A stretch of DNA of 63,142 bases, taken from Thermobrachium celere DSM 8682 (GTDB lineage: Bacteria > Bacillota > Clostridia > Clostridiales > Caloramatoraceae). Position 1 is the first letter of the stretch, and the number at the start of each line of letters is the position of its first letter. The notes below the pieces were generated by a model. That model was given only the letters and a program-made list of their open reading frames with translations. It searched no databases and had not been told where the DNA came from. Positions 3,956 to 57,528 of this stretch are shown piece by piece. Location: positions 220,909-284,050 of the forward strand of contig NZ_HF952018.1 in NCBI RefSeq assembly GCF_000430995.1, read 5' to 3'. The position numbers were made by a program, and so were the translations under genes.

Positions 3956-5374
3956 ATGCAAAAGAAGAGATTTAAAATGCCTACAGCCTATACAATACTA
4001 TTTTCAATAATAGTATTAGTGGCAATACTTACTTGGATTGTTCCTGCAGGTCAATATGATTATGTTGATCCTAATGCAGCAAAGAAACAGCCTATACCAA
4101 ATACTTATCACATAGTTGAAAGAACACCTCAAGGTCTTAAAGACATTGCGATGGCACCAATAAATGGATTTTATGATGCTGTTGATGTAGCACTGTTTGT
4201 TCTTGTTATTGGTGGATTTTTAGGTATAGTAATGAAGACAGGTGCAATTGAGGCTGGTATTGCAAATGTAACAAGAAAGCTAAAGGGAAGAGAAAAATGG
4301 ATGATACCTATACTTATGATACTATTCTCACTTGGTGGTACAACATTTGGTATGGCAGAAGAAACAATAGCATTCTACCCACTTTTGATACCAGTATTTT
4401 TAGCAGCAGGATATGATACGATAACTGCAGTTTCAGTTATAATGCTTGGAGCTGGAGTTGGAGTATTAGGTTCAACTGTAAATCCATTTGCAACAGGAAT
4501 AGCTTCAGGTTTTGCTAATATTTCAATAGGTGACGGAATTATATTTAGACTCTTAATATTAGTTTTAGGTGAAGCAGCAGCAATTCTATTTGTAATGAGA
4601 TATGCAGAAAAAGTAAGAAAAGATCCAACTAAATCATTAGTATATGAAACATTAAAGGAGGACAAAGAACACTTCCTTGCACATAAAGAAGGAACGGAAT
4701 TCCCAGAACTTACAGGAAAAAGAAAAATTGTACTATATATGTTTGCAGCTACATTTATAATAATGGTATTTGGAGTAATTCCATTCTCAGACATCGGTAT
4801 AACTGCTATTCCAACACTTGGATGGTGGTTTGGAGAATTAACAGCTCTGTTCTTAGTTTCAGCAATTTTAATAGGACTTGTATATGGAATGAATGAAAAA
4901 GAGCTTACATCAACTTTTGTTGATGGTGCAAGAGATCTTCTTGGAGTTGCCTTAATAATAGGTGTATCAAGAGGAATTACAGTAGTAATGAATGCTGGAA
5001 AAATAACAGATACTGTATTACACTTAGGTGAACAAACACTTGCAGGTACAGGTTCAGTAGGATTTACAATACTTTCATACCTATTCTATATACCACTTTC
5101 ATTCCTAATTCCTTCAACATCAGGACTTGCGACACTATCAATGCCGATTATGGCACCACTTGCAGACTTTGCACATGTTGCAAGACACATAGTAATTACT
5201 GCATACCAATCAGCATCAGGAATTGTTAATTTAATTACACCAACAAGTGCTGTTGTTATGGGTGGCCTTGCAATAGGAAGAGTTTCATATGATAAATGGC
5301 TAAAACATGTTTGGAAACTACTTGTAATACTAATGGTTATAATAATCGCAGTTCTTACAGTAGGAGCCCTCTAA
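3956..5374 (+). CDS. YfcC/DcuC-type transporter, likely arginine-ornithine exchanger
   Basis: Polytopic inner-membrane carrier of 472 residues with about 11-12 hydrophobic segments, starting MQKKRFKMPTAYTILFSIIV. The N-terminal KxRFxxPTAYTILF and the IVPAGQYDY block after the first membrane segment are typical of the YfcC (C4-dicarboxylate anaerobic carrier-like) family. Some Gram-positive members serve as the arginine/ornithine antiporter of the deiminase pathway. Its position behind the dipeptidase and opposite arcA-arcB supports arginine or peptide uptake with ornithine export; the substrate is not readable from sequence. The stop TAA at 5372-5374 overlaps the first bases of a dispersed repeat, which is followed by a terminator. 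Confidence 0.85.
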   Translation: MQKKRFKMPTAYTILFSIIVLVAILTWIVPAGQYDYVDPNAAKKQPIPNTYHIVERTPQGLKDIAMAPINGFYDAVDVALFVLVIGGFLGIVMKTGAIEAGIANVTRKLKGREKWMIPILMILFSLGGTTFGMAEETIAFYPLLIPVFLAAGYDTITAVSVIMLGAGVGVLGSTVNPFATGIASGFANISIGDGIIFRLLILVLGEAAAILFVMRYAEKVRKDPTKSLVYETLKEDKEHFLAHKEGTEFPELTGKRKIVLYMFAATFIIMVFGVIPFSDIGITAIPTLGWWFGELTALFLVSAILIGLVYGMNEKELTSTFVDGARDLLGVALIIGVSRGITVVMNAGKITDTVLHLGEQTLAGTGSVGFTILSYLFYIPLSFLIPSTSGLATLSMPIMAPLADFAHVARHIVITAYQSASGIVNLITPTSAVVMGGLAIGRVSYDKWLKHVWKLLVILMVIIIAVLTVGAL

Positions 5375-5406
5375 AGTGCCACCCAAGTGAAATGTGACAT
5401 TTTCAA
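5373..5406 (+). repeat. Stop-associated dispersed repeat, copy 1
   Basis: AAAGTGCCACCCAAGTGAAA then TGTGACATTTTC. It begins inside the stop codon of the YfcC gene and lies just before the terminator at 5439. One of nine copies in the window. Confidence 0.85.
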
Positions 5407-5649: not shown

Positions 5650-6225
5650 ATGTACTTTAAGAGGTTTATAGGGGAGAGAATTTATTTGTCGCCATTAAAT
5701 CCGGATGATTATTTAAAGTATGCAGAGTGGATAAATGACTTGGAAGTTAGTATTGCATTATTTGAAATGAAAACACCAATTACTGCTGAAGGTGAAAGGC
5801 AGATTATAGAAGATTTAGCTAAAGAAAATGTATTTGCGATAGTTTTAAATGAAGTAGATAAATTAATAGGAAATGTTGGCCTACATAATATTAATTGGAT
5901 ATCAAGAACTGCTGAACTTGGCATAGTAATAGGAGATAAATTTTATTGGGGACAGGGTTATGGAAAAGAAGCAATAGAACTCATACTAGATTATGCATTT
6001 AATATGTTGAATTTACACTCAGTATATCTTAAGGTTTATAGTTACAACGTAAATGCAATTAAATGCTATGAAAAAGTTGGATTTAAATATGCTGGAAGGC
6101 TAAGGGAAGCAATAGAAGTTGCTGGTGAAAGATATGATATTATTTATATGGATATCTTAAAAAATGAATTTAAGTCAGTTTATATTAAAGAAGTTGTAGA
6201 AAAGAAAAAAGTGTCACCCAAGTGA
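5650..6225 (+). CDS. GNAT family N-acetyltransferase (RimJ/RimL type)
   Basis: Acetyl-CoA-dependent acetyltransferase of the RimJ/RimL-like branch; the acceptor may be a protein N-terminus, polyamine or small amine and cannot be read from sequence. The 191-residue product has the acetyl-CoA loop GQGYGKEA after the strand TAELGIVIG, and the motif B region NVNAIKCYEKVGFKYAGRLR. It starts at ATG after GGGGGGA. The last five residues KVSPK and the stop TGA come from the dispersed repeat at 6208-6242, so the native C-terminus was probably replaced or extended. It appears monocistronic and converges on the MFS gene across a shared terminator. Confidence 0.88.
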   Translation: MYFKRFIGERIYLSPLNPDDYLKYAEWINDLEVSIALFEMKTPITAEGERQIIEDLAKENVFAIVLNEVDKLIGNVGLHNINWISRTAELGIVIGDKFYWGQGYGKEAIELILDYAFNMLNLHSVYLKVYSYNVNAIKCYEKVGFKYAGRLREAIEVAGERYDIIYMDILKNEFKSVYIKEVVEKKKVSPK

Positions 6226-6242
6226 AATGTGACATTATCCAA
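6208..6242 (+). repeat. Stop-associated dispersed repeat, copy 2 (supplies a C-terminus)
   Basis: AAAGTGTCACCCAAGTGAAA then TGTGACATTATCCAA. Its first 18 bases are translated as the last residues and stop of the GNAT gene. Confidence 0.85.
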
Positions 6243-10375: not shown

Positions 10376-11452
10376 ATGAATCAACAAAGACTAAACAAAG
10401 TATTAGCTGAAATGGAGAAAAGAAATTTAAAACAAATGATTATCTCAGATCCAGCATCCATATTTTACTTAACAGGCAAATGGATACATCCAGGAGAAAG
10501 GCTTTTGGCACTTTATATCAATCTAAACGGAAATCATAAACTTTTCATCAATGAGTTATTCCCAGTTTATGAGGATTTAGGTGTTGAAAAGATTTGGTTC
10601 AATGACACTCAAGATGGAGTTGAAATAATTTCAAATTATGTTATGAAGGATGAGCCAATAGGTATAGACAAAAATTGGCCTGCAAGATTTTTAATCAGAT
10701 TAATGGAATTAAAGGGTGGAAGTACATTTGTAAATGGTTCACCTATTATAGACAGAGTAAGAATGCAAAAGGATGAGAAGGAAATAGAATTGATGAAACA
10801 GGCATCAAGAATTAACGACATGGCAATGGAGGAAATGGTGAAGCTTGTACCAGAAAGATTAACTGAAAAACAAATGGTTTCAAAGCTAGCTGAAATATAC
10901 GAAAAGCTTGGTGCAGATGGATTCTCCTTCGGCCCAATCATAGCATATGGAAAAAATGCAGCAGACCCACATCATGAATCAGACAATAGCCAGCTAAATG
11001 AAGGAGACAGTGTAATTATAGACATCGGCTGTGTAAAGGATTCATACTGTTCAGATATGACAAGAACAGTATTTTATAAAAATGCAAGTGAAGTAGCAAA
11101 GAAGGTTTATAACATTGTACTTGAGGCAAATAAAAGAGCAATAGATATAATTAAGCCTGGAGTTAGATTCTGTGATATAGATAGGGCAGCAAGAGAACAT
11201 ATTGAAAATCATGGTTATGGAAAATACTTTACACATAGAACAGGGCATTCAATTGGTATAGAAGTACATGATTTTGGAGATGTTTCAGCAGTAAATACTG
11301 ATGTTGTTCAACCAGGAATGATATTCTCAGTAGAGCCAGGAATATATTTACCAAATGAAGTAGGAGTTAGAATAGAGGATTTAGTTCTTGTTACGGAAGA
11401 CGGATGCGAAGTATTAAATAAATATGATAAGGAATTAATAATAATAGAATAA
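10376..11452 (+). CDS. M24 family aminopeptidase (Xaa-Pro type)
   Basis: Dinuclear-metal peptidase releasing N-terminal residues before proline or cleaving Xaa-Pro dipeptides. An N-terminal creatinase-like domain (about residues 5-130) precedes the pita-bread catalytic domain (about 135-355). All five metal ligands are visible: D216 (VIIDIGC), D227 (CSDMTR), H291 (RTGHSIG), E320 (SVEPGIY) and E334 (GVRIEDLV). Length of 358 residues fits PepQ/YpdF-like enzymes. The SD is GGGGG. The stop TAA overlaps the first base of a dispersed repeat, then a terminator follows. PepP and PepQ cannot be distinguished by eye. Confidence 0.92.
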   Translation: MNQQRLNKVLAEMEKRNLKQMIISDPASIFYLTGKWIHPGERLLALYINLNGNHKLFINELFPVYEDLGVEKIWFNDTQDGVEIISNYVMKDEPIGIDKNWPARFLIRLMELKGGSTFVNGSPIIDRVRMQKDEKEIELMKQASRINDMAMEEMVKLVPERLTEKQMVSKLAEIYEKLGADGFSFGPIIAYGKNAADPHHESDNSQLNEGDSVIIDIGCVKDSYCSDMTRTVFYKNASEVAKKVYNIVLEANKRAIDIIKPGVRFCDIDRAAREHIENHGYGKYFTHRTGHSIGIEVHDFGDVSAVNTDVVQPGMIFSVEPGIYLPNEVGVRIEDLVLVTEDGCEVLNKYDKELIIIE

Positions 11453-11487
11453 AAGTGCCACCCAAGTGAAATGTGACATTATCCAAT
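11452..11487 (+). repeat. Stop-associated dispersed repeat, copy 3
   Basis: AAAGTGCCACCCAAGTGAAA then TGTGACATTATCCAAT. It starts at the last base of the peptidase stop codon and precedes a terminator. Confidence 0.85.
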
Positions 11488-11599: not shown

Positions 11600-12880
11600 T
11601 TAATTATTTCCTTTTGCGATGTTATTTAACGCATACTTCAACCTATCAATTTCTTCAAATGTATTATATAACCCAAAGCTCAACCTTACCATGCCAGGTC
11701 GTTTTGTTATATCGCTATCCCTAATGATATTTTTTATATCATTTTTAGTTAATTTTAAAAGTTTATGAACATATGGTTGAGCACAGAAACAGCCGTTTCT
11801 TACGCCTATTCCATATTCTTCAGAAAGTATCTTTGCAACTTCATTATGATTTACTCCTTCTATATTAAATGGAATTATTGCAACTTTATTTTCAACTCCG
11901 TCGCAATAGAATTTGATCTTTTCAATTTCCTTTAAAGAAGAGGCTGCATACTTTAAAAGTTCATTTTCATACTTTTCTATGTTGTCAAGTCCGATATAAG
12001 AAAGAGTGTTTATAGCAGAAACTAAAGCAGCAACTCCCATTACGTTAGGCGTGCCCCCTTCTTCTTTATGCGGCAAATCTTCCCATATAACAAAATCATC
12101 AGTAACTACTTTTACAGTACCTCCACCTTTAACATCTGGTACTCCAGAGTTTAAAATTGTCTTATTACCAACTAACACACCAACACCAAAAGGAGCATAC
12201 ATTTTATGAGCAGAGAACGCTATAAAATCTAATTTTTTATTTTCATCTTCATGCTTCATACATATTTTCTTGTGAGCAGCAATTTGGGCACAGTCAACAA
12301 ATATTTTAGCACCGTATTTATGACATAAAGCAGCAATATCATGGACAGGGTTAATATATCCAGTTACATTAGATGCATAGGTTACAGCAACAAGCTTTAC
12401 TATTCCAAAATAGTTTTTAAGTTTCTTCTCAAGATGATCCAAATCTATTCTTCCACATTCATCGGTTTTAACTATATCCACATGAAACCTAAATCTCCAT
12501 GGAAGAAGATTTGAATGGTGCTCCATTTCTGTTGTTAAAACAACACAATTTGGATATTGGCTGCAGATCTTATATGAAAGTTTATTTATTGCTTCTGTTG
12601 TATTTTTTACAAAAATAACCGTATCGTCTTTATTCCCTCCAACAAAATTTAAAATTTCATCCCTTGCCGACTCATAAATTTCAGTGGAAAGTCTTGATTT
12701 GTAACCTTCTCCACGATGAATTGAAGCATAATATTCAGAAAAGTAATTTATAAACCACATGACAGTTTTGAAGGGAGGTGTTGTTGCGGCATTATCAAAA
12801 TTTATATATTTAACCATTGTCCCATCTTTTAATGGTATTATACTGTCAACACCAACAATAAAATCTCTGAAGCATTCCAT
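11600..12880 (-). CDS. Class V aminotransferase, cysteine desulfurase-like
   Basis: PLP-dependent enzyme of the NifS/SufS/CsdA fold, 426 residues. The PLP lysine lies in FIAFSAHKMYAPFG. Other marks are TTEMEHHSNLLPWR (the SufS-like His over the PLP ring) and the C-terminal RNGCFCAQPYVHKLL, where a cysteine sits in the place of the SufS/CsdA catalytic Cys. Cysteine desulfuration is therefore plausible but unproved; no suf, isc or tRNA-thiolation gene is adjacent. I choose ATG 12880, spaced normally from AGGGTGG at 12886-12892. A GTG at 12889 overlaps that SD. The upstream region carries a copy of the dispersed repeat. Confidence 0.85.
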   Translation of the reverse strand: MECFRDFIVGVDSIIPLKDGTMVKYINFDNAATTPPFKTVMWFINYFSEYYASIHRGEGYKSRLSTEIYESARDEILNFVGGNKDDTVIFVKNTTEAINKLSYKICSQYPNCVVLTTEMEHHSNLLPWRFRFHVDIVKTDECGRIDLDHLEKKLKNYFGIVKLVAVTYASNVTGYINPVHDIAALCHKYGAKIFVDCAQIAAHKKICMKHEDENKKLDFIAFSAHKMYAPFGVGVLVGNKTILNSGVPDVKGGGTVKVVTDDFVIWEDLPHKEEGGTPNVMGVAALVSAINTLSYIGLDNIEKYENELLKYAASSLKEIEKIKFYCDGVENKVAIIPFNIEGVNHNEVAKILSEEYGIGVRNGCFCAQPYVHKLLKLTKNDIKNIIRDSDITKRPGMVRLSFGLYNTFEEIDRLKYALNNIAKGNN

Positions 12881-12919
12881 GTAAACCACCCTTTCTATTT
12901 TCCTCTTATATATTATTCA

Positions 12920-12955
12920 AAAGTGCCACCCATGTGAAATGTGAAATTATCCAAT
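12920..12955 (+). repeat. Stop-associated dispersed repeat, copy 4 (between divergent genes)
   Basis: AAAGTGCCACCCATGTGAAA then TGTGAAATTATCCAAT. Unlike most copies it lies between two divergent starts, not at a stop codon. Confidence 0.8.
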
Positions 12956-20309: not shown

Positions 20310-20343
20310 TGGATAATGTCACATTTCACCTGGGTGGCACTTT
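20310..20343 (-). repeat. Stop-associated dispersed repeat, copy 5 (reverse)
   Basis: Reverse complement of AAAGTGCCACCCAGGTGAAA then TGTGACATTATCCA. It lies between a terminator and the apbE promoter. Confidence 0.85.
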
Positions 20344-20413: not shown

Positions 20414-21349
20414 GTGTGGACAATTAAAGGGATATATGCCTTAGGAAGCGATATTTATGTTAATGTATCTGGAGCTTTTGGTAAGATAGTTACTGAACTT
20501 ATTTTTAGAAGGGTTTTAAATATTGATAAGAAAATGTCAGCATTTAGTGATGACAGTGAAGTAGGATTAATTAATAAAAATGCAGGTATTAAAGAGGTTT
20601 TAGTAAGTAAAGACACACAATATGTGATAAAAAGAGCACTTGAGTTTAATAAAATATCAGATAAATTTGATATAACAATAAGGCCTTTGGCATTATTATG
20701 GAGTAAAAAACTGAAAGATAATGAAATTCCAAGTAGTGAGGAAATAGAAAATGTAAAATCATTAATTGATTCAAGAGATGTTGTTATAAAAGAAGATTTT
20801 GCTTTTTTAAAAAGAAAAGGTCAGATGATTGATTTAGGTGCAATAGCAAAGGGATATGCAACTGATATATCAAAGGATATTTTAAAGGTACTTTCAATTA
20901 AAAATGCACTTCTTGATTTTGGAGGAAACATATATACCATAGGTAAAAATAAAGAAAATTATTGGAATATAGGAATACAAAATCCATTTTCAATTAGAGG
21001 AGAAATCATAGGAGTTTTAAAATCAACAGATGAGAGTATTGTAACATCTGGAATTTATGAAAGATGCACTAAAATTGGCGATAAAATATATCACCATATA
21101 ATAGACAAGTATACAGGATTTCCTGTTGAAAATGAGCTGGCAAGCGTGACGATAGTATCAAAATCATCTACTGAGGCTGATGCCTTTGCAACGATAATAC
21201 TACTTGAGGGATTAAAGGAAGGAATTAAATTGATGCAGTACTATAATTTAGAAGGAATAATTGTAACAAAGGATAAGGATATATTTATAACGAAGTCCTT
21301 GTTTGAGAGATTTAATTGTGTTTGTAATTATAAAATATTTAAGATATGA
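20414..21349 (+). CDS. apbE: FAD:protein FMN transferase
   Basis: Attaches FMN covalently to a Thr or Ser of FMN-binding domains; the next gene encodes such a domain, so it is the probable target. Family motifs are MSAFSDDSEVGLIN, DLGAIAKGYATD, LLDFGGNIYTIG and the metal-binding region SSTEADAFATIILLEG. About 311 residues. The start is odd. The GTG at 20414 lies inside the SD AAGGAGG (20408-20414). The only codon at normal distance is ATT at 20423, and no ATG occurs upstream before a stop. No signal peptide or lipobox is visible, although ApbE enzymes acting on extracytoplasmic domains usually have one. The N-terminus may be truncated or the start non-canonical. Confidence 0.88.
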   Translation: MWTIKGIYALGSDIYVNVSGAFGKIVTELIFRRVLNIDKKMSAFSDDSEVGLINKNAGIKEVLVSKDTQYVIKRALEFNKISDKFDITIRPLALLWSKKLKDNEIPSSEEIENVKSLIDSRDVVIKEDFAFLKRKGQMIDLGAIAKGYATDISKDILKVLSIKNALLDFGGNIYTIGKNKENYWNIGIQNPFSIRGEIIGVLKSTDESIVTSGIYERCTKIGDKIYHHIIDKYTGFPVENELASVTIVSKSSTEADAFATIILLEGLKEGIKLMQYYNLEGIIVTKDKDIFITKSLFERFNCVCNYKIFKI

Positions 21350-22727: not shown

Positions 22728-23783
22728 TTATTTTAATGGTTCAAAATGGATAATGTCACATTTCACCTGGGTGGCACTTTCTATTATGTATATTGTGTTT
22801 CTTGCCTCTTCTGCTGAAACAGGAACCTTCCCACCCTCTACAATTGCACTATATAGTTCTTTGTAATATTCCCTATAATCACCACATTCACTTTGTACAG
22901 TTGTTCTTATATCAACTCCATTTAAATTTATATTTAAAATTCCATTTGATGTTTTAGGTTCCTTTCCCCAAGGAGAGTATGTATTAGGTGTAAATCCTTT
23001 TCTTAAATGCTCTTCTTGTACGTCCATTCCATACTTAACAAAGTTTCCATTTTCACCTGTTACTATGTATTTTGGTAGAGGTTCTTTGACAAGCATTGAG
23101 GCCTTAAGTATAACCTTTAAATCATCATAGAATAAAATCAGCTCAAAGCTGTCATCTATCTTTGCAAAGCTTCTTTGTTTTCGTACATCAGCGAAAAATT
23201 TATTTGGTGTTCCAAAAAGATAAAGGGCCTGGTCAATAAGGTGGGAACCTAAATCATATAGTATTCCAGAACCAGGTATGTTTTCTTCTCTCCAATAGTT
23301 TTTAGGAAAATTTCTAAACCTATCAAAGTGTGCCTCAAATTCAATAATCTTCCCTAAAACACCACTTTCAATAATCTTCTTTACTGTTTTAAAGTCGCTG
23401 TCGTATCTTCTATTTTGATATACTGATAAAATTTTGCCTTGCTCTTTTGAAATATTAATTAAATCCTCTGCCTGTTTTGTTGTAACTGTAAAGGGTTTTT
23501 CAACAACAACGTGCTTTCCCTTTAAAAGAGCCATTTTTGCATATTCATAATGGCTTTCATTTGGAGTTGCAACTACAACAAGATCTATGTCGTCACTATT
23601 TAAAATATCATCAACATTGCTACATACTTCTGCGGAGTATTTTTTCTTTGCAACTTCAATGTTGTTTTCATTTTTTGTATATATCTTTTTTAATAAGTAT
23701 CCTTCTGTACAGTCTATAATTGGTGCATGAAATACTTGCCCAGATAGACCAAAACCAATCAATCCAATATTTATTGTTTTCAT
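22728..23783 (-). CDS. Gfo/Idh/MocA family oxidoreductase
   Basis: NAD(P)-dependent dehydrogenase of a sugar or cyclitol, 351 residues. The N-terminal Rossmann motif is IGLIGFGLSGQVFHAP and the EKP motif KHVVVEKPFTVT is near residue 95. The catalytic region has YDLGSHLIDQALYLFG. The profile resembles B. subtilis YvaA/IolW (scyllo-inositol dehydrogenase), but the substrate is not certain. The last about 17 codons (after YIIE) are unusual: SATQVKCDIIH is read from a copy of the dispersed repeat at 22747-22780, so the natural C-terminus was probably overwritten. Monocistronic. Confidence 0.9.
   Translation of the reverse strand: MKTINIGLIGFGLSGQVFHAPIIDCTEGYLLKKIYTKNENNIEVAKKKYSAEVCSNVDDILNSDDIDLVVVATPNESHYEYAKMALLKGKHVVVEKPFTVTTKQAEDLINISKEQGKILSVYQNRRYDSDFKTVKKIIESGVLGKIIEFEAHFDRFRNFPKNYWREENIPGSGILYDLGSHLIDQALYLFGTPNKFFADVRKQRSFAKIDDSFELILFYDDLKVILKASMLVKEPLPKYIVTGENGNFVKYGMDVQEEHLRKGFTPNTYSPWGKEPKTSNGILNINLNGVDIRTTVQSECGDYREYYKELYSAIVEGGKVPVSAEEARNTIYIIESATQVKCDIIHFEPLK
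22747..22780 (-). repeat. Stop-associated dispersed repeat, copy 6 (translated)
   Basis: Sense-oriented inside the 3' end of the Gfo/Idh gene, AAAGTGCCACCCAGGTGAAA then TGTGACATTATCCA on the minus strand. It encodes residues SATQVKCDIIH. Confidence 0.88.
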
Positions 23784-24003: not shown

Positions 24004-24037
24004 TGGAAAATGTCACATTTCACTTGGGTGGCACTTT
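24004..24037 (-). repeat. Stop-associated dispersed repeat, copy 7 (reverse)
   Basis: Reverse complement of AAAGTGCCACCCAAGTGAAA then TGTGACATTTTCCA, lying 19 bases before the DedA-PAP2 start, between divergent genes. Confidence 0.85.
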
Positions 24038-24056
24038 TGAAGGATGGAGGATGAAT

Positions 24057-25340
24057 ATGCAGCAGATACTACAACATTTAGTAAATATATTTCAATCCTA
24101 TGGGATACTTGGTTTAATTGTTTTAGCCTTTGCAGAGTCTTCGTTTTTCCCAATACCGCCAGATGTTGTTTTAATTCCCATGTGTATAATGGATAAAAAC
24201 ATGTCATTGATATATGCACTTTCAACAACACTGTCTTCAGTAGCAGGTGGGGTTTTTGGTTATTACATAGGAAAAAGGTTTGGAAAGCCTATATTAAAAA
24301 AGCTCTTTAAAGAGGATAAGATAGATAAAGTTGGGTACTATTTTGACAAATATGGAGGCTGGTCTATTGTAATTGCAGGCTTTACGCCAATTCCATATAA
24401 GATATTTACAATTGCAGCAGGTGTGTTTAATGTAAACTTTATTACTTTTGTTACGGCATCTTTGATAGGTAGAGGAATGAGGTTTTTCCTTGAAGGAATT
24501 TTAATTTTCTATATGGGGGATAGTGCAAAGTATTTCATAACAAATTACTTTGAATACATAACTATAGGAGTAGCACTTTTATTAATTGTGTTCTATGGAT
24601 TATTTAGATACTTAAAGAAGAAGAATCTACTAAAACTAAACTTTGCGGTTTATAAGAATAAGATATACTCAAAGCTTAACTATTTCCATAAAAAATATAG
24701 AATTGTGGACCAAACAGCCTTTTATGTTTATACCTCAATTGTATTATCCTTCTTCTCATTGTTTGTATTTTTAGAACTTACTGAGGATAACTTTATACAT
24801 AAGGATTATTCCTTAGATATTTATATTATTCAATTAGTACTATCAATAAGGAACAATGTACTAACTAAAATATTTAAGGGGATAACTGTCCTTGGAAACT
24901 ATGAATGGATAATTGCGTTTACTGTTTTAGTTATGACACTTATGATAAGGAATAATAGAAAAAAGTTTTCAGCTTTTTTTGGTCTTAATATAACTTTAGT
25001 GTGGCTATTTAATGAGCTTTTAAAGGTACTTTTTAAAAGGCCAAGGCCAGATCTGATTTATAGGTTGGTTGATGCAAGGGGGTACAGCTATCCAAGTGGC
25101 CATGCAATGATTTCTTTAACATTTGCCCTTATATTAGTTTATTATTTAAACGAAAGAGATTTTAAATATAATTCTATTAAGTTTGCCGTTATAATTTTGG
25201 CTCTCATTATAGGTATTAGCCGCATTTATCTTGGGGTACACTATTTTACAGATGTTTTAGCTGGATGGTCAGTTGCTATAATCTATTCAACAACAAGCAT
25301 TTTAATATATAAAAATGTATTATCAAAAGAGAGGGAATAG
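24057..25340 (+). CDS. DedA (SNARE-associated) domain fused to PAP2 phosphatase
   Basis: Membrane protein of 427 residues. The N-terminal half (about 1-190) is a DedA/VTT domain with FAESSFFPIPPDV, the GYYIGKRFGKP loop and FTPIPYK, typical of undecaprenyl-phosphate or phospholipid flippases. The C-terminal half (about 215-420) is a PAP2 phosphatase with all three motifs: KVLFKRPRPD, YPSGHAM and SRIYLGVHYFTDV. One protein could thus dephosphorylate and translocate a lipid carrier. ATG 24057 is preferred: GGAGG at 24046-24050 is then six bases away. An ATG at 24051 abuts the SD, and a longer frame begins inside the repeat. The following gene overlaps or abuts its end. Confidence 0.9.
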   Translation: MQQILQHLVNIFQSYGILGLIVLAFAESSFFPIPPDVVLIPMCIMDKNMSLIYALSTTLSSVAGGVFGYYIGKRFGKPILKKLFKEDKIDKVGYYFDKYGGWSIVIAGFTPIPYKIFTIAAGVFNVNFITFVTASLIGRGMRFFLEGILIFYMGDSAKYFITNYFEYITIGVALLLIVFYGLFRYLKKKNLLKLNFAVYKNKIYSKLNYFHKKYRIVDQTAFYVYTSIVLSFFSLFVFLELTEDNFIHKDYSLDIYIIQLVLSIRNNVLTKIFKGITVLGNYEWIIAFTVLVMTLMIRNNRKKFSAFFGLNITLVWLFNELLKVLFKRPRPDLIYRLVDARGYSYPSGHAMISLTFALILVYYLNERDFKYNSIKFAVIILALIIGISRIYLGVHYFTDVLAGWSVAIIYSTTSILIYKNVLSKERE

Positions 25341-28481: not shown

Positions 28482-28507
28482 AAACTTAATAAAAATGAAT
28501 AATTCAG

Positions 28508-28607
28508 CCACAAGGGGAGATGGATTAGGCCATCTGAGAGTAAGGTCCGTTGAAACCTTTGACCCTTTGAACCTGATCTGGTTGATACCAGCGTAGGGAT
28601 GTGGGAT
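28508..28607 (+). ncRNA. TPP riboswitch (THI element)
   Basis: Conserved blocks are visible: ACAAGGGGAG at the start, CATCTGAGAGTAAGG, ACCCTTTGAACCTGATCTGG, then TTGATACCAGCGTAGGGA. Binding of thiamine pyrophosphate should favour the terminator that follows and shut off thiD-cytX-thiM-thiE. Confidence 0.97.
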
Positions 28608-28620
28608 ATAAAATGATTTC

Positions 28621-55985: not shown

Positions 55986-57032
55986 TTGAGAAAAAGAATG
56001 GTCAATATTAATGATTGTTCTATTGGAGATAAAGTAGCTTTAGATGTAATATCTGACACCGGGGCTACTATTGTTACTGAAGGAACGCTCTTAAATGAAT
56101 TTATAATTAATAAGTTAAAGCAACTAGGAATTAAGCAGATACATATATATGCTAATGAGAGTTCGTATTTAAGTCAAAAAGAAATTTATTTTGAACAGTT
56201 TACAAAAAAATATACACAAAATGTAGATACAATAAAAAATTTAATAGGAGATTTAGCATCAGGTAAAAAACTTGACTACACTACAATAACTTCTATATCT
56301 GAGGATATAAAGAAAGAGATAAATGAAAAGGATAATATTATAAAATTTTTATCCACCCTTAAGGCATATGACCAATATACATACAATCATAGCATGAATG
56401 TTGCCTTTTATAGTATGCTACTTGGAAAATGGCTTAAGTTACCAGATGAAATAATAACAGAACTTACAAAGGCAGCTGTAATGCATGATTTAGGAAAAGC
56501 AAAAATTCCAGATGAAATATTAAACAAAAAGGGACCACTTAATAAAGATGAATTTGAAATAATGAAGAAACATGCTCAGTACGGATATGAAATTGCAAAG
56601 CAGGATACAAGAGTAAACATTGAAGTTTTAAAGGGAATACTTATGCATCATGAAAGAGAAGATGGGACAGGCTATCCTCTAAAGTTAAAAGGCGATAAGA
56701 TAAATCTATTTGCAAAGATAATTTCAATATGTGATGTTTATGATGCATTAACTCAAGAGAGAGTATATAAGGGCAGAATGACTCCCTTTGATGCATTTAA
56801 AATGATAGAATTAGATGGATATACTAAGTTTGATACAGCAATTCTTTTAACATTCCTTCAAAACATAGCAAGTTACTACATAGGTATGCAGGTAGTATTA
56901 AACGATGGACGAGTTGGTGAAGTAGTTTATATAACACCTAAAAATGTAGCTTATCCAATTATTAAAGTAGGCGATGAACTTATTGACTTAATGAACAAAA
57001 AGGATTTAAAAATAGTTTCTTTACTAAACTAA
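55986..57032 (+). CDS. HD-GYP domain protein, probable cyclic di-GMP phosphodiesterase
   Basis: 348-residue cytoplasmic protein with an N-terminal segment of unknown fold (about 1-115), an HD-GYP domain (about 120-290) and a short beta-rich tail. The metal motif HD is at H167-D168 (VMHDLGKAKIP) and the GYP signature is intact in HHEREDGTGYP (221-231), so hydrolysis of cyclic di-GMP or a related dinucleotide is likely. The start is a TTG at 55986 with GAGGGG nine bases upstream; the next ATG is too far from it. The stop overlaps a dispersed repeat. Confidence 0.93.
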   Translation: MRKRMVNINDCSIGDKVALDVISDTGATIVTEGTLLNEFIINKLKQLGIKQIHIYANESSYLSQKEIYFEQFTKKYTQNVDTIKNLIGDLASGKKLDYTTITSISEDIKKEINEKDNIIKFLSTLKAYDQYTYNHSMNVAFYSMLLGKWLKLPDEIITELTKAAVMHDLGKAKIPDEILNKKGPLNKDEFEIMKKHAQYGYEIAKQDTRVNIEVLKGILMHHEREDGTGYPLKLKGDKINLFAKIISICDVYDALTQERVYKGRMTPFDAFKMIELDGYTKFDTAILLTFLQNIASYYIGMQVVLNDGRVGEVVYITPKNVAYPIIKVGDELIDLMNKKDLKIVSLLN

Positions 57033-57065
57033 AGTGCCACCCAAGTGAAATGTGAAATTATCCAA
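57031..57065 (+). repeat. Stop-associated dispersed repeat, copy 8
   Basis: AAAGTGCCACCCAAGTGAAA then TGTGAAATTATCCAA. Its first two bases are the end of the HD-GYP stop codon TAA (57030-57032). Confidence 0.85.
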
Positions 57066-57204: not shown

Positions 57205-57477
57205 ATGAAAAGATATAGATTTAGATTTTATGGTAGGGTTCAAGGAGTTGGGTTTAGATATTTTGTTTATACAAAGGCATATGCCTTAGGCTTAAATGGT
57301 TTTGTAAAAAATTTAGATGATGGAACAGTTGAGGCTGAAGTTGAGGGAGAAGAAAAAGAAATTTTAAAGTTTCTTGATTTAGTATTAAAGGGTAATGGTA
57401 TTTCAAGGATTGATGATGTGGAAAAAGAAGAGATCGATATTAAAGGGGATAGAAAGTTTAAAATACTATATTATTAA
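57205..57477 (+). CDS. acyP: Acylphosphatase
   Basis: Small enzyme of 90 residues that hydrolyses acyl phosphates such as acetyl or carbamoyl phosphate. The signature GRVQGVGFRYF contains the phosphate-binding loop and catalytic Arg, and GFVKNLDDGTVEAEVEG contains the catalytic Asn. The SD is AAGGTGGAG. It lies between two copies of the dispersed repeat, the second forming its terminator. Confidence 0.96.
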   Translation: MKRYRFRFYGRVQGVGFRYFVYTKAYALGLNGFVKNLDDGTVEAEVEGEEKEILKFLDLVLKGNGISRIDDVEKEEIDIKGDRKFKILYY

Positions 57478-57478
57478 A

Positions 57479-57508
57479 AAAGTGTCACCCAGGTGAAATG
57501 TGAAATTT
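57479..57508 (+). repeat. Stop-associated dispersed repeat, copy 9 (within a terminator)
   Basis: AAGTGTCACCCAGGTGAAAT then GTGAAATTT, one base after the acylphosphatase stop. The copy is shorter at its 3' end. Confidence 0.8.
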
Positions 57509-57528
57509 CGCTTTGGTGACATTTTTTT
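57483..57528 (+). terminator. Terminator partly built from the repeat
   Basis: TGTCACC (57483-57489) from the repeat pairs with GGTGACA (57515-57521), extended by A and T runs and followed by TTTTTT. Confidence 0.8.

Follow-up and report, generated by a model that had tools for sequence, protein, structure and literature searches.

A dispersed repeat that probably belongs to a RAYT-type transposase docks at stop codons in Thermobrachium celere and encodes the C terminus of a Gfo/Idh oxidoreductase

The last residues of a Gfo/Idh/MocA-family oxidoreductase in Thermobrachium celere DSM 8682 are encoded by a copy of a dispersed repeat, which raises the questions of what this repeat is, how it came to lie inside a coding sequence and whether the protein has put it to use. 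The window analyzed here is a stretch of 63,142 nucleotides (contig NZ_HF952018.1, positions 220,909 to 284,050, forward strand) in which the oxidoreductase and further copies of the repeat are located (Table 1). The oxidoreductase ends in IIESATQVKCDIIHFEPLK, followed by a stop. The repeat AAAGTGCCACCCAGGTGAAATGTGACATTAT lies on the gene's own strand at 22750 to 22780 with no mismatches; residues 336 to 346 (SATQVKCDIIH) are encoded by the 33 nt at 22746 to 22778 and are followed by FEPLK and a TAA at 22728 to 22730. A preliminary description had proposed that these residues are encoded by the sense strand of the repeat, in a frame other than that used by a GNAT gene, and both points were borne out: the GNAT ORF ends in KVSPK at the TGA of the repeat itself, whereas the oxidoreductase uses frame 2.

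Table 1. Positions of the oxidoreductase, of the repeat copies in the window and of a second gene with an in-frame repeat
Feature	Position	Strand	Basis or remark
Repeat copy directly after stop of 472-aa ORF 3956-5374 (transporter-like, by eye)	5373..5406	plus	
Repeat copy, frame 0, end (KVSPK, stop) of GNAT ORF 5650-6225	6208..6241	plus	
Repeat copy at stop of 358-aa ORF 10376-11452 (peptidase-like, by eye)	11452..11485	plus	
Repeat copy, conserved end toward 5' side of minus-strand ORF 11600-12889	12920..12953	plus	
Repeat copy, conserved end toward 5' side of plus-strand ORF 20414-21349	20310..20343	minus	
Gfo/Idh/MocA-family oxidoreductase, 351 aa	22728..23783	minus	ORF, Pfam and PDB alignments; last 16 residues SATQVKCDIIHFEPLK
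Repeat copy (REP-like), frame 2, oxidoreductase residues 336-346	22747..22780	minus	Exact copy; same place and frame in C. proteoclasticus
Repeat copy, conserved end adjoins ribosome-binding region (by eye) of plus-strand ORF 24024-25340	24004..24037	minus	
Repeat copy at stop of 348-aa ORF 55986-57032, then insertion-sequence-like stretch	57031..57064	plus	
Repeat copy directly after stop of 90-aa ORF 57205-57477 (acylphosphatase-like, by eye)	57479..57512	plus	
Class-IV aminotransferase (PabC-like, assigned from sequence)	L103 3336-, equal to G000:C32:1664292-1665050; L121 10714+; L235	minus in G000	

The Pfam domains GFO_IDH_MocA and GFO_IDH_MocA_C are matched in the oxidoreductase, the latter reaching residue 339, and the alignments with nine PDB relatives (E of 1e-30 or better) stop at residues 336 to 339; the repeat therefore supplies a C terminus beyond the conserved fold. 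Oxidoreductase matches at an E of 1e-60 or better were found in 4 of the 40 genomes searched, including the genome of this strain (G000). The orthologue in genome G003, taken here as C. proteoclasticus DSM 10124, is 90% identical and ends in ILESATQVNCDIIQFIPYK, with the repeat at the same place and in the same frame, and two relatives from other genera (43% and 39% identical) end without the repeat. A tblastn search of plasmids returned only relatives of less than 60% identity. Because the repeat is common to both orthologues and read in the same frame, its insertion is older than the divergence of this strain from C. proteoclasticus, and we infer that it replaced an older end of the gene. 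The genome of the orthologue sharing these residues itself carries the repeat family, in agreement with the preliminary attribution of the residues to the repeat.

Aligned copies of the repeat share about 31 strongly conserved bases (AAAGTGCCACCCARGTGAAATGTGAMATTWTCCA), with the conserved end AAAGTGCC, followed by an AT-rich and variable right part. Eight copies with three or fewer mismatches lie in the window, versus 0.00 in 100 dinucleotide shuffles, and the 21-nt core gives nine. The whole genome contains 72 matches to the 22-nt core at three or fewer mismatches and none to the reversed pattern; counts below refer to a set of 67 copies that omits contigs C5, C12 and C51 or to a set of 71 that includes them. 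The repeat is present in five of five genomes of the Caloramator genus (this one counted; G001 with a single match, G002 with 49) and in none of 35 others, and all 42 stretches returned by an exact-pattern scan of public genome contigs are titled Caloramator. Matches in plasmid and phage collections were at chance level only (E of 0.4 or higher). At gathering thresholds, Rfam recognized only a TPP riboswitch in the window (RF00059, 79.8 bits; 28503 to 28616, plus strand), which lies upstream of thiamine-like genes.

When folded as single-stranded DNA, three copies with an inverted partner gave z scores of -12.1, -10.9 and -6.3, and the Gfo/Idh copy, the one singlet folded, gave 0.00, equal to shuffles. 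A good inverted partner was found within 75 nt of 4 of the 67 copies and a partial one near 12, against 2 of 67 in a direct-orientation control; the corresponding counts in C. proteoclasticus were 3, 9 and 2 of 44. In the latter genome, tandem copies 47 bp apart (L126, 9075 and 9122) occupy a site where strain mosi_1 (L077; probably genome G004) has one copy, which suggests an element of about 47 bp. Another short element of C. proteoclasticus, with ends like AGCTCCGAAAAAAT and ATTTTTTCGGAG, seemingly lies inside a repeat at L059 with CCAC on both sides, and five repeat copies of that genome (CTCCCACCC) have the same altered left end.

Two Y1-type genes are present in the T. celere genome. One (ORF C32:638328-639185) is a putative REP-associated tyrosine transposase (RAYT) that narrowly passes the NCBIfam cut-off (NF047646; 81.8 bits, cut-off of 80). 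It contains HYH and YIHRNP, and HYH and Y-x-HRNP are invariant across the seven proteins aligned. Inverted repeat copies flank the gene, the downstream copy lying at its stop. The second gene (L135) scores 51.6 bits, under the RAYT cut-off, and no repeat was found in its locus. The long C-terminal part of the RAYT gave only subthreshold matches of helix-turn-helix (HTH) type, near residues 247 to 284 in three of four proteins scanned, and a phmmer search of the PDB with the RAYT returned nothing at an E of 0.1.

The RAYT of C. proteoclasticus (80% identical) likewise has inverted repeat copies on both sides, and the downstream copy encodes the C-terminal SATQVKCDIL of the transposase itself (L127 8286-). 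In G004 the gene is in broken frames, surrounded by copies at 2581354- and 2582282+. Since the surroundings of the RAYT are rich in repeats, which often occupy gene ends, flanking in one genome could be due to chance, and the changed repeats beside more distant RAYTs appear to be the stronger argument. The RAYT of G001 is 58% identical and is flanked by doublets of a variant repeat with GAAAATRGAAT; this variant, at no more than one mismatch, occurs eight times in G001 (two being the RAYT flanks), three times in G002, four times in G004 and in neither G000 nor G003. The RAYT relatives of G009 and G077 (47%) each lie between inverted copies of TCTCCGGTGCCWGGCACC, one of the two copies in G077 carrying a single base change. 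Matches to this palindrome number 52 in G009 and 46 in G077, some of them being both strands of one palindrome, versus none in G000 and G074, one each in G005 and G008 and none to the reversed pattern. This palindrome, distinct from the Caloramator repeat and also written GGTGCCAGGCACCGGAGA, is dispersed in G009 and G077, which represent two other clostridial genera, beside the RAYT relatives, often as doublets in G077.

In total, the flanks of 16 RAYT loci were read by eye, those of G016, G019, G021, G068 and G047 being left unjudged. Matching palindromes or repeats are also visible in the flanks of the RAYT relatives of G008, G074 and G005; no clear matching pair was seen by eye in G013 and G015, among eight relatives at 42 to 48% identity. 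No Y1 gene was found in G002 despite its repeat matches, so that either repeats may outlive the RAYT gene or the draft assembly may miss it. Repeat type thus follows RAYT type between genomes in G001 and in G009 and G077, with G002, G013 and G015 standing against this pattern.

A same-strand stop ends between -8 and +1 of the GTG of the repeat in 27 of 67 copies, compared with 1.5 expected for random noncoding places and 2.6 when the four preceding bases are matched (maximum of 10 in 5,000 draws); ORFs of at least 80 aa were called greedily and are not gene-finder output. No opposite-strand stop abuts the other end of any of the 67 copies. The stop lies inside the repeat in 10 copies and beyond it in 2. 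In C. proteoclasticus, 13 of 44 copies are docked in this way, a count made without a null expectation, and 11 have the stop inside or beyond the repeat. Two copies follow tRNA-Ser genes, at a distance of 4 nt in L100 and 2 nt in L108, and several of the remaining ones, judged by eye, have the conserved end just upstream of the ribosome-binding region of a divergent gene. The listed TTG start of ORF 24024-25340 falls inside the repeat, and the real start is probably further in. For the palindrome of G077, 23 of 51 matches (48 distinct sites) lie within -20 to +8 of a stop, a wider criterion than that used for the Caloramator repeat, versus 3.0 expected, and none do so at the other end.

Open frames of at least 100 codons enter 12 of the 67 copies, and all three frames of the repeat are used: frame 0 by two copies (ending VSPK and VPPM), frame 1 by seven (ending CHPSEM, CHPCEM or CHPREM) and frame 2 by three (ATQVKC and onward, or ending ATHVKCE). 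In the C. proteoclasticus stretches analyzed, 11 of 44 copies are entered by long open frames. The preliminary description had the repeat exapted as coding sequence in more than one frame; its coding in several frames is confirmed, and the exaptation of the Gfo/Idh tail is not upheld, as this strain and C. proteoclasticus disagree at 3 of the final 7 positions of the protein and the core of noncoding copies is about equally conserved.

The age of the copies was examined at orthologous sites in C. proteoclasticus, where at least 250 nt of flank had to align. Of the 67 copies, 41 were comparable (26 lacked a usable flank); 33 sites were filled, a share biased upward because the C. proteoclasticus DNA compared had been selected for containing repeats, and at 8 the repeat was not found. 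Among these eight, the sites of L093 2416 and L103 2178 are not empty and hold a disrupted copy, and L105 2115 is the second copy at a place that has two. Within the window, the repeat was not found in C. proteoclasticus at the sites of the GNAT copy and of the acylphosphatase-like ORF. Core identity at the 33 filled sites is 94.7%, or 97.6% without two variable sites (23 sites), and nonorthologous cores are 93.0% identical. Positions 31 to 59 are 43.7% identical at filled sites and 33.5% between nonorthologous copies. At repeat site 10, A predominates here (36 of 66 copies) and G in C. proteoclasticus (32 of 43). The old copies thus stay close to a single consensus, which differs by species.

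Such conservation would be expected if the repeat were a 3'-end regulatory element of translation or RNA stability, of whatever origin, kept by selection at stop codons. This explanation, which we regard as possible and somewhat doubtful, fits the docking at stop codons in this genome, in C. proteoclasticus and by the G077 palindrome, and the core identity between species across the 33 pairs is high against the 60.2% at fourfold degenerate sites (4,707 of 7,816, 70 genes). Furthermore, E. coli REPs less than 16 nt from a stop have been reported to lower translation, in work cited by the RepRanger paper (PMC12306157). It is weakened by the mean mismatches over the 23 sites, which differ little between stop-docked copies (0.46, 13 pairs) and those with no stop nearby (0.63, 16 pairs), with 0.5 (6 pairs) for copies read as protein; these are small numbers without a statistical test, from an earlier 35-pair set that includes at least three doubtful pairs (L108, paired through a tRNA paralogue; L105 2115, where the alignment ran through the repeat; and L112, which is a duplicate contig). 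In addition, the similarity of orthologous and nonorthologous identities points to a shared consensus or homogenization rather than to selection gene by gene, and 20 of 71 copies (2 more being undetermined) have an opposite-strand ORF upstream. Selection specific to docking was considered as the cause of core conservation and rejected, since no clear excess of conservation was seen in docked copies.

Upkeep of the repeats could instead depend on the RAYT. Pairwise identities over 25 nt and over the first 17 nt are 83.5 and 88.0% in G002, 93.2 and 94.0% in G000, 93.7 and 93.8% in G003 and 85.9 and 96.5% in G004, all measured with one pattern. The more diverse copies of RAYT-less G002 only hint at such dependence, because G004 is close to G002 over 25 nt and G002 is one draft genome.

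A true exaptation of the Gfo/Idh tail, with the repeat-derived residues kept for folding or function of the protein, appears improbable. The tail and its frame are common to C. proteoclasticus, and 9 of the 11 repeat-encoded residues are identical, but residue identity says little when the core is as conserved without a nearby stop as when it is read; the divergence of the last seven residues and the presence of the tail in only one other genome found also speak against retention for function. The idea gains more from a class-IV aminotransferase, in which three Caloramator genomes (G000, C. proteoclasticus and G004) carry the repeat in frame ahead of a conserved FME[KR]YF and G001, of the same genus, lacks it; this gene would be the better candidate for exaptation. 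Exaptation is thus not proven for the Gfo/Idh tail, which probably arose as a side effect of docking at stop codons. Most simply, an element with a preference for gene ends would have inserted a few codons ahead of the stop, so that its own sequence took the place of the final residues of the oxidoreductase.

It is very improbable that the repeat has nothing to do with the RAYT and is a MITE or the terminal repeat of an ordinary insertion sequence of IS21 or IS3 type, since the same IS-like sequence that follows three copies here and at least one copy in C. proteoclasticus (L074) adjoins few copies, starts outside the core and looks like an IS entering beside the repeat, an apparently intact IS21-type pair in a 7-kb stretch has no match to a 20-mer of the repeat at up to five mismatches, and among the stretches examined no IS was seen that is bounded on both sides by the repeat as its terminal repeats. 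IS21 ends were likewise rejected as the source of the repeat, the IS21-type pair (IstB by Pfam and IstA by eye) having no repeat nearby. The copies at window position 57034, L091 3084 and L104 2037 are followed by the IS-like left end GATATGCTCCCTTTATGGTAGACAG, with small changes in L104, as if an insertion sequence preferred the right flank of the repeat.

From these observations, we consider it likely, with good confidence, that the repeat, which docks at stop codons, is a REP-like element of a RAYT (HUH/Y1) transposase and that the Gfo/Idh tail arose by read-in. Paired in inverted orientation, two copies give a REPIN-like doublet with a hairpin of about 26 bp, probably the form moved, and most copies are singlets, in which the right half would have been lost or replaced. 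The RAYT would mobilize the repeat with single-stranded hairpins as the substrate. The conserved end docks in sense orientation at a stop codon or a few bases after it, and where it lands slightly inside the reading frame, the ribosome would run into the repeat. Two of the three frames meet a TGA within the repeat, and the third remains open, adding SATQVKCDI and flanking codons. The latter outcome is that of the Gfo/Idh gene, reached before this strain and C. proteoclasticus separated, and the resulting tail may be translated and neutral.

In comparison with described systems, the repeat shares features of REPs and differs from them in several respects. As in REP/RAYT systems (TnpAREP, REPtron), best known from gammaproteobacteria (PMC2817692 and PMC6006769), a dispersed repeat stands in inverted copies on both sides of an HUH/Y1 transposase gene, the repeat differs with the RAYT between genomes, and copies lie mostly outside genes or at gene ends. 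Canonical REPs are similarly mostly extragenic and near ORF 3' ends; Di Nocera (PMC3733652) describes REPs within 20 bp of ORF 3' ends, REP ends that supply stop codons and intragenic REPs. Unlike canonical REPs, the repeat has no GT[AG]G foot, and a single copy is not a stem-loop, a clear hairpin being found only in doublets. Nunvar (PMC2817692) reports that RAYTs are always flanked by inverted REPs, that suitable homologues occur only in gammaproteobacteria and that REP copy number is usually over 100, whereas the host here belongs to Clostridia and has about 70 copies. The long C-terminal part of the RAYT, with its weak HTH-like matches, is a kind of domain reported for subclass 2.1, which Quentin (PMC6006769) lists along with subclass 2.3 as having extra C-terminal domains and no REP-like sequences.

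TIRYTs are RAYT relatives flanked by other inverted repeats (PMC3733652). As in these TIRtrons, the inverted repeats here are unrelated to GTAG REPs, and some TIRs form moderately abundant families; unlike them, the repeat has no GGGGWSAS motif, and closeness to ORF 3' ends is described in that source for GTAG and CGTC REPs rather than for TIRs. The inverted doublets form hairpins like REPINs, in which singlets are derived and are considered defunct remnants by Bertels and Rainey (PMC3116915), but singlets are the majority here, and their core is highly conserved between species at shared sites. Translation of the repeat in or at the end of unrelated proteins, with repeat ends supplying stops, recalls intragenic REPs and the Rickettsia palindromic elements (PMC3733652), from which the present cases differ in being C-terminal, the part of the proteins that the search covered, and in using three frames. 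Searches of open-access papers, largely at the level of listings and passages, showed no description of a clostridial or Firmicutes REP/RAYT repeat system, and passages of two Geobacillus genome papers (PMC9693769 and PMC4847372) only list a RayT COG.

A broader proposal, which we hold to be rather unlikely when all its parts are taken together, is that a clostridial RAYT class of a kind reported to be REP-less keeps genome-wide singlets at gene 3' ends, that these stay near one consensus at old sites and shift together between species, a sign of continual rewriting or reading by the RAYT or a partner, and that their spread adds C-terminal tails to proteins. Singlets are here taken not to be dead remnants because their core is 97.6% identical at old sites while fourfold sites are at 60%.

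Through this association, a clostridial repeat that had lacked an explanation is linked to a family of transposases, and the range of RAYT-linked repeats would come to include Clostridia, where the repeat is of another design. Docking at stop codons would provide a route by which C-terminal tails repeatedly join proteins. REP singlets in this lineage look conserved rather than decaying, so a role of REPs at gene ends may be testable in relatives with and without the RAYT.
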